Below, piece by piece: positions 4,218 to 25,444 of a stretch of 29,034 nt of DNA. The position numbers and the translations under genes were made by a program. Source of the stretch: Saccoglossus kowalevskii (taxonomy: Eukaryota > Hemichordata > Enteropneusta > Harrimaniidae); the NCBI RefSeq assembly GCF_000003605.2, contig NW_003119933.1:113397-142430 (forward strand). Direction: 5' to 3'. Numbering within the stretch: the stretch's first letter is position 1; each line of letters begins with the position of its first letter. The notes beneath the pieces were generated by a model. It had not been told where the DNA came from. It made no database searches and worked only from the letters and a program-made list of their open reading frames with translations.

Positions 4218-7200
4218 ATGTGGAAATGGAATGTATTTCTAGTTTTAATAACGTGTTTCAGACCAGCCCCAATATTGGGTTACGCGAAGGTGAGTATCTA
4301 TAATCATATAAAACCCATTTTGAATAAATAGTCAATCTAAGTTGGCAATAATATTAACATTAAATATTATACAGTCAGTACAAAATTAGAATGGCTATGC
4401 GTGTATTACCATGACGATAATATGGAATCCAATGAGTGCTTATAGGGTTAACATTGTTATAGACTCTGATTTGTTAATTTGTTGTCTTGGCATAGAATGT
4501 AGAATGTCCCTAGGGGAATGCTTTGAGAATATATATATATAATTTAAAATAATTCGTAAAGTTGGCAATTCTCACGATAATATATGCGATTCAACTTTAT
4601 TAAGAACATATAATTGACATGAACAATTATAAATTTACCGAGTAGAATATAGATAACGCTATGTGTAGAATACACGTTGGATATATTAGATATTAACTAG
4701 AGTACCGACATATATACATACATTGTACAGATAATCATTATGAATTTATTCTTAGAAACGATCAAATCAATTTTTCGACTTCCATAATAGGCCATACACA
4801 CAATCACTACATCTGCTCACCACACTATCAATTTTGAGGATTGACAATGTATATCTGGTACCTGGGTGAATGCTGCATGCATTTTGAACATATGTAACGT
4901 ATAATTATCATGTCAGTGACCGATTTCGACGTCTACTTTTTTTATAGAAATCCAATCCACACGGTAGTTATCCTAAAACCATGCTGCTTCCAGACAAACT
5001 CACTGGTTTAGAAAAGACACACCCACATCGTGTCACCAAGAGAGCAAGTATGCAATTAGTTATTTTTCTAATACATTGTTCCTTCAAATGTCGCTATTGA
5101 TCGCGACTCTTCCAGATTGCCAATACTTTTCGATTATCGTTGCTATCCGTGCTTTTTTTCATGTTGCTTCATTATCAGCCTGTGGTCAGATTCTGACGAG
5201 TTCAACAGGGACGGTAACTTCACCGAATTATCCTAGCAATTACCCAAGTAACAGCAACTGTGTGACAACAATTCAAGCACCTACAAATAAAATTATAGAG
5301 ATTACACTTACGGATGTGAAAATCGAGATAGAATCGTATACGTCTTCGGGTGATCCTGATCATCCAGCTGGAATAAGATGTCTCTGGGATTACGTAGAGG
5401 TTTGTGGTTGATATTGTAATTACGGAATATGTGTGTCTAACTACAATCATTTGGTATGTTATTTCACCCAATATAATATAATACAATACATGTTCGTGTA
5501 TGTTATCGCATCAGTTAATTCGGATATGTACCATATGTGAATTAGTCAACGTGGTTTCGGACGGAATTGTTTAAATTGTGTGTACAACAAAAAAAAACAA
5601 ATTTGCTGTTATAGAAGTAATATATACAGTAGTTCCCTCTCATCAGTACTTGAAACGAGAGTGAATGTATACATCATTTTTGAAGTATGTACATATTTTT
5701 GTCATCAGTTTGAGGACGTCGGCATTGCAAGAACCAAATACTGTGGAGAGTTTTCAGGAAGGGTATGGACGTCGTTCGACAGCAAGGTCAACGTTCTTTT
5801 CTTTTCTGACGATTCCGCCCAGTACAGGGGGTTTGCGGCAAGCTACACTTTCCTTGACAAACCAACAGGTACAGATTTTACTGAATCCACTATGATTATA
5901 TCAATTGAGTTTTGTAGACTATCAGCCACTCTAGATATTCTACAGATTAACGTAGTATTGTGTACGTCACCATCGGAAAAACAACTCGAGATCGTAAAAC
6001 TACAATTCATATAATTAGTATAATGACGTATGGGGTTTATTTCTGTGCGACAAGTGGTTGGTCCATGCTTGTATCTCAGTACACCCGTGCATCCTTTACT
6101 GCAAGCATCCAGTGTTCTTGATGCAGCCACACTTATATATGTATCTATATGTTTAATAGATCCACTGATGTTCGACTTCGGGGTGTCAACCGCTGATATT
6201 GAATTCCCACCAGCGGATGATGGGAGCGTCGTATTGAATGGAATATCCTATACATTCTTCGGTACATCACACAGTCAACTCTGGGTAGGTCATGATATGT
6301 ACTTTGCTAATGGGAAATATAATATATCATTGCTCGGAGTGGTTGGATCACCTGTGTTGATTTTTGTTTTCACGACGCCGGTAACACGTATTTTAACTGT
6401 TTATTGTGATAAGTTGTGGACACTGCGCGTACTTTGTGTTTTGCAATCAATATCACTTTTGTTCATATTGACAACTGTATTTAGTTTGTAGTCTTTCATT
6501 TTCTTGAGTATAGTAAAATCTTTCAACAAAATAATCTTCATTAAATATGTACTCGACTACTATAAATCAAAGGCTCTGATTTGCCTTCGTTTCACTACTT
6601 ACGCTAATGAAGCGCTTTGTCACTACGAGCGAGATTTATAAGACAGGTGCATTTAAAGGTGCTTGTTTTCTTTCAGGTAAACACAAATGGAGTCTTATCA
6701 TTCGATGACGAAGAGTTGTCGTACAGTCCGCTACCTATTCCCCACGGAACAAACCATTTACTTGCACCATATTGGGCTGATGTTGACGTGCGCAGTGGAG
6801 GGCAGCTGTTTTACCGACAGACAACGGATACGGCCACTCTGGACAAAGCAGACACAATTATATCGTCGGCCTTCGGAATTAATTTCCAGTCGACATCAGC
6901 CATAGTTATCACGTGGTATGACGTTGCATTCTTTGCAACATCTGCAATAGGGCAGAAATCGGTAAGAGACATACGATCCCAGCTCCATCAATGTGTGCGA
7001 CACACTGACTAATATTTATTAAATTGGGGAGGGGGTCGTTGATGAGGCAATGGAACATAAATTGATAAGTGACATCCACACAAAGTACAATATTTATTTA
7101 TGTCGATAATAGTATTTGGTGCGAGAAATTTATTTGCAAAATCTAAATTACAGTTTTTTGGCCTTGGTCGGTTTTAAACACCACCACCCAACATTCAGTA

Positions 7201-25300: not shown

Positions 25301-25444
25301 TAAATAATATATAACAGTGATATACAATATGTATATATAATAGTATAATATGATTTGTTCAATTTACTTCATAGGGCACAGCCATCGGGCAAATGGACTT
25401 CAGAAGACTGTAGTCTAACAAAACGTTCCATTTGTGAATTGTAA
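16311..25444 (+). CDS. gene B: secreted CUB-NIDO-HYR(x3)-C-type lectin protein (13 coding exons)
   Basis: Predicted 788-aa paralogue of gene A. Exons: 16311-16388, 16672-16717, 16806-17017, 18260-18479, 18705-18835, 20013-20315, 20650-20793, 21331-21475, 23275-23526, 23860-24099, 24383-24601, 24790-25096, 25375-25444. All introns are GT...AG and the phase series is the same as in gene A. The start has A at -3 and gives a signal peptide (MKQIKSSILYTILILSSS). Exon 2 ends IQKRATS, matching the dibasic KRAT of gene A. CUB is at about 42-185, NIDO 186-426, HYR modules 427-510, 511-590 and 591-663, and CTLD 664-788. No membrane anchor is seen. Intron 8 (21476-23274) holds possible antisense coding remnants. 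Intron 4 holds a possible poison exon. Intron 5 (18836-20012) holds only a (AT)n tract. Role and ligand are unknown. Confidence 0.87.
16398..16511. repeat. TTTACTTATA/TTTACTTG tandem and GA-rich tract in intron 1 of gene B
   Basis: The stretch at 16398-16454 consists of repeated TTTACTTATA and TTTACTTG units. It is followed at 16484-16511 by a GAGA/GAAA purine tract. Confidence 0.85.
16806..18479 (+). other. gene B exons 3-4: divergent CUB domain
   Basis: Two exons (16806-17017 and 18260-18479) sit where gene A has its CUB. The start (MCGQVQTFTLSSGSTENIAS, then PGHPNPYPAGC) is clearly CUB-like. The second half is diverged: CFYAYL replaces the CxWDYVEV strand, and the FxSDxS segment is replaced by a longer IFNVESNDPNPATGYNG. 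The calcium-coordinating aspartates thus seem lost. The cysteine spacing is also altered (CVKLDMS in place of YCG). Confidence 0.75.
18583..18667 (+). other. possible cassette/poison exon between CUB and NIDO of gene B
   Basis: An 85-nt segment has a good acceptor (TGTGTTTAG) and a good donor (GGAG|GTAAGC). Its own open frame is cysteine-rich (DGCSCQLGSCTLNTYGG) and recalls an EGF fragment. Its phase does not fit: joined to the CUB exon it reads into TGA after five codons. It is either a decayed EGF exon or a regulated exon giving a CUB-only product or decay of the message. The main model skips it. Confidence 0.3.
19915..19934. repeat. (AT)10 microsatellite
   Basis: Ten uninterrupted AT units in intron 5 of gene B. 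A similar (TA)10 lies at 10551-10570 in intron 10 of gene A. Confidence 0.95.
20885..21190. repeat. GC/CpG-richer insert in intron 7 of gene B (candidate dispersed repeat)
   Basis: This interval has noticeably more CpG (TTTCGTCGAAG, CACCGCGCGATTAC, CACATCCCGTCG) than the surrounding AT-rich intron, and it has no open frame. A dispersed repeat insertion is the simplest reading. No terminal repeats were identified, so the limits are approximate. Confidence 0.3.
22070..22472 (-). pseudogene. possible antisense coding relic nested in intron 8 of gene B
   Basis: Two overlapping minus-strand frames look protein-like and lie end to end. The first (22472 down to about 22255) begins with a hydrophobic, signal-like MTFITCTKFLLLGILVQYT and continues IPDARFNSAACPSRFKVRL. 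The second (about 22258 down to 22070) reads VGGDVKLAVSYGDTALNV, then AKTLSFEQWVAGYHGFTGRY, and ends in a TAA that overlaps AATAAA. The region is richer in GC than the intron around it. A frame change near 22255 would be needed for one product of about 130 aa. It could be a frameshifted retrocopy, a small nested gene, or chance. The family is not recognised. Confidence 0.3.
23275..24601 (+). other. gene B exons 9-11: three HYR modules
   Basis: Exons of 252, 240 and 219 nt (23275-23526, 23860-24099, 24383-24601) are each phase 1-1 and each encode one hyalin-repeat (HYR) module. The second is most typical: DTTAPTIIC, then ENTVTCTSMDNVGN and CSFKITV. The third has TNCPSNIDVVDS, VNWDPPTASG and YIATDAAGNELQCTFTITV. 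The first is Pro/Thr/Ser-rich and diverged, but keeps VAWSDPT and a CTFDVLV end. HYR is an immunoglobulin-like fold found in extracellular adhesion proteins. Confidence 0.85.
24790..25444 (+). other. gene B exons 12-13: C-type lectin-like domain
   Basis: The exons at 24790-25096 and 25375-25444 are split by a phase 2 intron inside the Trp codon of CAQLW, exactly as in gene A. Landmarks are KTWNESDTSCQSSGGNLARI, IWFGAHR, VCYSNWASGE, DTCAQLW and RSICEL. The EPN/QPD and WND motifs are absent here too. The stop TAA (25442-25444) overlaps a consensus splice donor. Confidence 0.88.

Follow-up and report, generated by a model that had tools for sequence, protein, structure and literature searches.

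The neighbouring genes A (positions 4218–12144) and B (16311–25444), both located on the + strand of a 29,034-nucleotide stretch of Saccoglossus kowalevskii contig NW_003119933.1 (the window), raise the question of how two genes with a common scaffold came to encode different middles. A sequence-only reading of this locus proposed that, after a duplication, the whole central cassette of one gene was replaced, so that three EGF modules stand in A and three HYR modules in B. Each gene is represented by 13 predicted exons (Table 1) with GT...AG at every intron, and the spliced open reading frames encode proteins of 667 (A) and 788 (B) amino acids. All 12 intron phases are identical (0,1,0,1,0,0,0,1,1,1,1,2), and thus the common exon plan described in that reading is borne out. 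The exon chains of A and B, like those of genes C, E and G considered below, are predictions from DNA. Pfam analysis over the window (stops read as X; three plus and two of the three minus frames) gave matches above cut-off only in exons of A and B, and the Rfam search over the window gave 0 matches at the gathering score.

Table 1. Predicted exons of genes A and B (positions in the window).
Feature	Position	Strand	Basis
A exon 1: start codon, then a stretch resembling a signal peptide	4218..4289	+	hydrophobic peak VFLVLITCF
A exon 2: linker with terminal KRA/T (dibasic KR)	4948..5047	+	read from spliced model
A exon 3: CUB first half	5179..5399	+	Pfam, shuffle comparison with B
A exon 4: CUB second half	5709..5868	+	Pfam
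A exon 5: N-terminal extension of NIDO	6160..6284	+	shuffle comparison with B
A exon 6: NIDO	6677..6961	+	Pfam, shuffle comparison with B
A exon 7: NIDO	7421..7567	+	Pfam, shuffle comparison with B
A exon 8: NIDO end, phase-1 donor	8541..8673	+	Pfam, shuffle comparison with B
A exon 9: EGF 1, class 1-1	9063..9191	+	Pfam, module comparison
A exon 10: EGF 2, class 1-1	9594..9719	+	Pfam, module comparison
A exon 11: EGF 3, class 1-1	11070..11195	+	Pfam, module comparison
A exon 12: CTLD, entered in phase 1 and left in phase 2	11614..11923	+	Pfam, shuffle comparison with B
A exon 13: last part of CTLD with stop codon	12075..12144	+	shuffle comparison with B
B exon 1: start codon, then a stretch resembling a signal peptide	16311..16388	+	hydrophobicity
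B exon 2: linker with terminal KRAT	16672..16717	+	read from spliced model
B exon 3: CUB first half	16806..17017	+	alignment to A; Pfam score under the cut-off
B exon 4: presumed CUB second half	18260..18479	+	read from spliced model; 613/1000 shuffles reach score
B exon 5: N-terminal extension of NIDO	18705..18835	+	shuffle comparison with A
B exon 6: NIDO	20013..20315	+	Pfam, shuffle comparison with A
B exon 7: NIDO	20650..20793	+	Pfam, shuffle comparison with A
B exon 8: NIDO end, phase-1 donor	21331..21475	+	Pfam, shuffle comparison with A
B exon 9: putative divergent HYR 1, class 1-1	23275..23526	+	no Pfam match; shuffle tests
B exon 10: HYR 2, class 1-1	23860..24099	+	Pfam
B exon 11: HYR 3, class 1-1	24383..24601	+	Pfam
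B exon 12: CTLD, entered in phase 1 and left in phase 2	24790..25096	+	Pfam, shuffle comparison with A
B exon 13: last part of CTLD with stop codon	25375..25444	+	shuffle comparison with A

Pfam analysis of the spliced proteins showed the presence of CUB (66.1 bits), NIDO (160.2 bits), Lectin_C (50.8 bits) and FXa_inhibition-type EGF (92.5 bits over three stretches) in A, and of NIDO (105.9 bits), Lectin_C (56.8 bits) and HYR (75.5 bits over two stretches) in B, the cut-offs being 25 bits for NIDO and 21.4 bits for CUB. The domain composition first read from the letters was thus recovered for NIDO and Lectin_C of both proteins, for CUB and EGF of A, and for exons 10 and 11 of B, with HYR scores of 47.8 and 42.5 bits, both above the gathering score. 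It was not recovered for two parts of B: CUB reached 14.9 bits in the full protein and 18.1 bits for exons 3–4 alone, and exon 9 gave no match to Pfam HYR. When exon 9 was compared with five other HYRs, 3, 1, 0, 1 and 0 of 500 shuffles reached the observed score; with the HYRs of gene G, 40, 23 and 3 of 500 did, two of these comparisons being less clear. Exon 9 is HYR-like by shuffle tests only, and may be classed as a putative divergent HYR.

In the comparison of A with B exon by exon, each against 1000 shuffles, the real score was never reached for exons 3, 5, 6, 7, 8, 12 and 13, while it was reached by 407, 677 and 928 shuffles for exons 9, 10 and 11. At the level of sequence comparison, homology is confirmed for NIDO exons 5–8, CTLD exons 12–13 and CUB exon 3, and the middles, three EGF against three HYR (one of them divergent), are indeed unrelated. 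The proposed homology of the flanks holds for these exons; for exon 4 it is not seen in the sequence (613 shuffles), and exons 1 and 2, with the signal peptide and linker, give no clear alignment, since 159 and 20 shuffles reached their scores. Introns 3, 5, 6, 7 and 12 lie at an identical aligned residue, intron 2 is offset by one residue and intron 1 by seven, and the place of intron 4 is a gap in the alignment. Introns 8–11, compared by phase only, are of phase 1 in both genes, so that each middle module is bounded by phase-1 introns.

Three further predicted genes, C, E and G, are located on the same contig (C1271). Gene C encodes four EGFs, then one HYR, then a CTLD; at the junctions read (the acceptor of EGF 1 lies outside), its module introns are of phase 1 and those of the CTLD of phase 1 and then 2. 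CUB and NIDO are absent from gene C as read, and C as it stands is therefore not the gene from which A and B descend. Gene E contains four EGFs, with only EGF in the slot, and a truncated CTLD; gene G contains HYR, VWD-C8-TIL, HYR and then CTLD, with phases matching those of C at the junctions read, the internal VWD-TIL junctions lying outside. The EGFs of C and E correspond position by position (62, 63, 68 and 59% identity), and EGF 1 of A is nearest to EGF 4 of C (61%). Exon 10 of B matched an HYR of gene G in a 6-kb search (34%, 1.7e-11). HYR 3 of B is not specially close to the HYR of C, with 36% identity against 29 and 34% to two L029 HYRs. Further HYR arrays lie on C165, C1892 and C1189.

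A and B pair in NIDO trees of 12 rows with approximate exon ends (FastTree 0.969; IQ-TREE 92/90, not starred). Raw NIDO identity favours other genes, A showing 49% to C3225, 48% to C1810 and 46% to g1 of contig C1613 against only 37% to B; it is thus the trees that support the pairing, and in them B has a long branch. Across the assembly, the best other place for the CTLD of A is B (33%, 2.5e-12), followed by a match at 1.7e-7, with 27 matches among 92 candidates. In CTLD trees, A, B, C and G form one clade against seven CTLDs of C1613 and C3647 (100/99), and the clade in the tree with A, B, C and E is supported at 98/97; the truncated CTLD of E, a long branch, was excluded from the A, B, C, G tree and from the constraint tests. 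Support for this clade may itself be overrated, since long branches meet in the trees. Inside the clade, FastTree pairs A with C (0.848 and 0.861 in two trees), while trees constrained to A+B are not rejected (p-AU 0.22 and 0.217). At four-fold sites, 11 of 53 shared sites are identical between A and B, with 13.7 expected at random. Silent sites are saturated and the duplication is accordingly old; a recent duplication is rejected.

The most probable origin of the two middles, at roughly two chances in three, is a history within a clustered lectin family in which phase 1-1 modules were gained, duplicated and lost one at a time. A and B are tandem paralogues of long standing; they would belong to a family of secreted modular proteins with clustered genes, the hallmark of which would be a two-exon C-type-lectin-like tail entered through a phase-1 intron. 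The phase-1 slot before the tail would accept class 1-1 exons, namely EGF, HYR and the VWD-C8-TIL block, and A and B would additionally carry a common CUB-NIDO head. In the starting relative, as in gene C, EGF and HYR modules probably stood together ahead of the CTLD. The order of module gain and loss is an inferred step, and loss is inferred rather than seen, since tblastn over the window found no EGF relics in B (best match at E 6.2, inside HYR 1) and no HYR relics in A better than E 3.3.

Replacement in one step, in which recombination between phase-1 introns 8 and 11 would have swapped a three-exon block after duplication, accords with exactly three exons in each cassette between the same two phase-1 introns and with the pairing of A and B by NIDO. 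It is nevertheless unlikely, because the contents of the slot vary module by module: gene C combines four EGFs with one HYR, E has four EGFs only, G has HYR with VWD-C8-TIL, and the C1613 genes have none. Gene C, with both types, favours stepwise gain and loss over wholesale replacement. In addition, the three EGFs of A are 45–50% identical to each other and the HYRs of B only 29–37%, and thus the two cassettes do not give the impression of being equally old blocks. The replacement of a whole cassette in a single event, as put forward in the sequence-only reading, is not upheld.

The cassette is absent from six NIDO genes elsewhere in the assembly, g1–g5 of C1613 and the gene of C2604. In g1 and g2, read at the DNA level, a phase-1 intron joins NIDO to CTLD and the slot is empty; for g3–g5 and C2604 the empty slot was judged from open frames only. 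The NIDO-CTLD genes of C1613, C2604 and C3647 resemble A and B in the NIDO exon plan and in the NIDO-to-CTLD order, but no cassette was found in them, and their QPN-bearing CTLDs belong to another clade. CUB was not found in the C1613 tiles read. Six NIDO genes (C3225, C1810, C3395, C3542, C2304 and C2334) were left out of the count. On C3225 and C3395 the sequence runs into N before a CTLD is reached, and no CTLD was found in the C1810 tile; an extra NIDO exon is present on C1613 (tile position 79283–79426, minus), in addition to those of the modelled genes. Tblastn extensions of the EGF region of A into C3225 and g5 of C1613 were judged spurious, as there is no EGF-like open frame there.

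The empty slots agree with independent insertion, in which an ancestral CUB-NIDO-CTLD gene with an empty phase-1 slot would have given rise to A by gain of EGFs and, separately, to B by gain of HYRs. This is quite improbable, however, as the CTLD type of A and B differs from that of the empty-slot genes (100/99), while C, E and G, with the CTLD type of A and B, all have modules before the CTLD. That the EGF and HYR exons belong to nested or neighbouring genes, or are alternatively used, can practically be dismissed: the models rest on DNA, and B intron 8 (1.8 kb) and A intron 10 (1.35 kb) are long, but the introns are GT-AG throughout, the phases join without a stop on a single strand, no further Pfam domain exceeds the cut-off in the frames searched, and the order of modules followed by CTLD recurs in C and G.

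The secreted matrix proteins SNED1, nidogen and alpha-tectorin contain NIDO followed by EGF or other modules. Compared with these through the Pfam model only, A and B differ in starting with CUB and finishing with CTLD. Among the matches listed in the full-text literature, the CUB-NIDO-x-CTLD architecture as such was not seen. Class 1-1 exon shuffling is reportedly associated with Patthy. In this process, a phase-1 intron of the recipient gene is the site at which modules flanked by phase-1 introns are gained, copied or lost (PMC3927616); metazoan genes so formed resemble A and B, being paralogues with differing middle modules. As expected for this process, a recipient phase-1 intron without a module is present in the relatives g1 and g2. 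The present case lies among clustered genes with a common CTLD tail, and the mechanism is no different. The process proposed for A and B is textbook, well-described exon shuffling, to which the CUB-NIDO-x-CTLD architecture is added. Polydom and polydom-like paralogues of a sea anemone, extracellular multidomain proteins of one family, likewise differ in their central regions by missing modules, EGF, HYR and CUB included; unlike A and B, they have a Sushi-HYR-TKE core, and a NIDO/CTLD scaffold is not described in the sections available (PMC12549020).

The N-terminus of both proteins is hydrophobic, and past residue 35 no 19-residue window exceeds 1.6; A and B are probably secreted, and the KR site may be cleaved. 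Calcium-dependent sugar binding by C-type lectins involves EPN or QPD plus WND motifs. In the CTLDs of A and B, WTS takes the place of WND, and neither EPN nor QPD occurs; binding of protein or of a non-canonical ligand is accordingly likelier than calcium-dependent sugar binding. The CUB-NIDO head and CTLD tail may bind extracellular partners, and the EGF or HYR array may serve as a spacer differing in length and stiffness between A and B. The two are candidate secreted adhesion or recognition proteins. The idea of a diversifying recognition set may fit the architectural diversity of the cluster, but A and B are old, with saturation at four-fold sites.

It is very doubtful that C1271 is a combinatorial recognition locus in which neighbours with one CTLD tail and a standard phase-1 slot keep exchanging EGF, HYR, VWD and CUB-NIDO pieces; if true, such exchange would yield a repertoire of secreted receptors that is encoded in the genome and perhaps polymorphic. 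Sister species could tell neighbour-to-neighbour module exchange from single loss. The linked paralogues, with EGF, EGF and HYR, HYR, or HYR and VWD in the slot, and the empty slot elsewhere, show domain shuffling stepwise in one genome.

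The common 13-exon plan and common intron phases that the sequence-only reading assigned to both tandem paralogues, genes A and B, were recovered in full, with 13 predicted exons in each gene and the phase series 0,1,0,1,0,0,0,1,1,1,1,2 in both. Introns 3, 5, 6, 7 and 12 occupy the identical aligned residue; in the same alignment, intron 2 is offset by one residue and intron 1 by seven, and intron 4 lies within a gap. Each exon alignment of A and B was judged against 1000 shuffles. For exons 3, 5, 6, 7, 8, 12 and 13, no shuffle (0/1000) matched the observed score; for exons 1 and 2, 159 and 20 shuffles did so, and exon 4 gave no alignment signal (613/1000). 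The flanking domains described as shared are therefore homologous in the first CUB exon (exon 3), NIDO (83 identities in 223 aligned pairs) and CTLD (41 in 113), and this part of the description is not clearly borne out for exons 1, 2 and 4. A short frame in intron 4 of B, DGCSCQLGSCTLNTYG, found by eye between AG and GT, is possibly an additional small exon.

Coordinates of predicted genes and other features (A and B from an exon-by-exon rebuild; L030, L031 and L035 are fetched stretches of the same contig, C1271)
Feature	Location	Strand or position	Description
Gene A	window 4218-12144	+	13 predicted exons, 667 aa, all introns GT-AG
Gene B	window 16311-25444	+	13 predicted exons, 788 aa, all introns GT-AG
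DGCSCQLGSCTLNTYG frame	window 18617-18667		candidate small exon
Gene C	L030:2659-7770; C1271 ~86.0-91.2 kb	same strand as A/B, upstream of window	single predicted exon chain
Gene E	L031:3818-7426	minus, opposite to A/B	4 EGF exons, shortened single-exon CTLD (16.0 bits)
Gene F	L031:49-147 and 866-982		two EGF exons
Gene G	L035:1-5373; C1271:184001-189373	downstream of window	HYRs, VWD-C8-TIL-TILa block, HYR, A/B-type CTLD
Direct repeat, 74 bases	window 26446-26519 and 26816-26889		97%, ahead of minisatellite
Minisatellite	window 26889-27601		62-base units, 11.5 copies
Open frame	window 28622-29032	minus	contains HSFRSGAATTAA

The middle exons 9, 10 and 11 carry no signal of common origin (407, 677 and 928 of 1000 shuffles match the score; 820/1000 for the whole block). 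Pfam places CUB, NIDO, three EGF-type (FXa_inhibition) stretches and Lectin_C in the A protein, and NIDO, two HYR stretches and Lectin_C in the B protein; the CUB of B scores under the cut-off and exon 9 of B has no Pfam match. Against five HYRs, the score of exon 9 was matched by 3, 1, 0, 1 and 0 of 500 shuffles; in a further test, by 0/500 against the HYR of gene C, compared for a second time, and by 40, 3 and 23 of 500 when gene G supplied the three HYRs. On these comparisons, exon 9 is a divergent HYR, so that the claimed opposition of three EGF and three HYR holds for two HYRs by Pfam and for the third by shuffle tests.

Gene C opens with a signal-like start, continues with four EGF exons and a single HYR exon (62.2 bits), and closes with an A/B-type CTLD in two exons, which scores 18.4 bits against a Pfam cut-off of 22.6, yet is alignable with A and B. 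As in A and B, the module introns of C are in phase 1 and its CTLD introns in phases 1 and 2 (junctions read; first EGF acceptor outside); the junctions of G likewise gave phase-1 module introns and CTLD introns 1 then 2, its first HYR being truncated by the edge of the fetched stretch. The EGFs of C and E match position by position (62, 63, 68 and 59% identity), the first EGF of A is closest to the fourth of C (61%), and the second HYR of B matches one HYR of G (34%, 1.7e-11). The EGF exons of F resemble those of E, one being 93% identical to EGF 2 of E. In gene D, on the same contig, the first exon encodes CUB (38.9 bits), after which the sequence is N.

The phase-1 slot before the CTLD tail thus contains four EGFs in E, four EGFs and an HYR in C, three EGFs in A, three HYRs in B and HYR-VWD-HYR in G. 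This module-by-module variation speaks against the proposal that one gene had its whole cassette replaced after duplication. Class 1-1 exons, flanked by phase-1 introns, are known to enter introns of that phase, and being symmetrical they are also more easily lost (PMC3927616). Therefore, with a probability of about two in three, A and B diverged as such exons were gained, duplicated and lost, the slot altering one module at a time, rather than by a single replacement. Gene C, which as read has neither CUB nor NIDO, suggests an EGF-plus-HYR ancestor for both.

Confidence in gain and loss is slightly lowered, and that in the two rival routes, one-step replacement and separate insertion, slightly raised, because the NIDO of A is nearer by raw identity to other genes (contigs C3225, 49%, and C1810, 48%; g1 on C1613, 46%) than to B (37%), and because FastTree joins the CTLDs of A and C (0.861). 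A forced A+B pairing of CTLDs is not rejected (p-AU 0.217), and the best other match of the CTLD of A in the assembly is B (33%, 2.5e-12; next 1.7e-7). In the NIDO tree of 12 rows, A and B group together (FastTree 0.969; IQ-TREE 92/90, not starred, with a long B branch). The CTLDs of A, B, C and G fall into a single clade, apart from the seven other CTLDs in the tree (100/99, with a long-branch warning). At 53 four-fold degenerate sites common to A and B in NIDO and CTLD, 11 third bases agree, with 13.7 expected at random; silent sites have reached saturation since the duplication, too far for dating here.

A NIDO search of the assembly (572 Mb, 4830 contigs), where the window occupies C1271:113397-142430, gave 34 exon matches, grouped into about 15 genes. 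In five genes of C1613 and one of C2604, NIDO precedes CTLD and neither EGF nor HYR was found between the two; in g1 and g2, the two genes where the joining intron was read, it is in phase 1. Contig C3647 carries NIDO and two CTLDs; only a few kilobases of C2604 and C3647 were seen. The suggested search for further CUB-NIDO-x-CTLD genes thus yielded NIDO-CTLD relatives on these contigs, and no CUB in the C1613 tiles (21,564 of 120,000 bases N). Long, hyalin-like arrays of similar HYR exons are present on C165, C1892 and C1189 (150 of 226 candidates scored), spaced often by 425 bases in C165.

Within the window, the minisatellite and direct repeat may represent a mobile element whose core consists of tandem repeats. 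The minus-strand open frame has no Pfam match; its HSFRSGAATTAA stretch resembles tyrosine-recombinase retroelements.

No CUB-NIDO-x-CTLD family was among the matches listed in full-text literature searches, with most subscription journals outside their scope. Exon shuffling is a known process, and the architecture is, as far as seen in the literature listed, a new instance of it. A parallel is provided by sea anemone polydom paralogues, whose middle modules differ between paralogues (PMC12549020).

The A and B proteins look secreted, and the KR site preceding CUB in both may be cut by a proprotein convertase. The EPN/QPD and WND motif rule was applied to the CTLDs, and those of A and B lack both. 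The head and tail would serve extracellular adhesion or recognition, with the EGF or HYR arrays acting as spacers between them.
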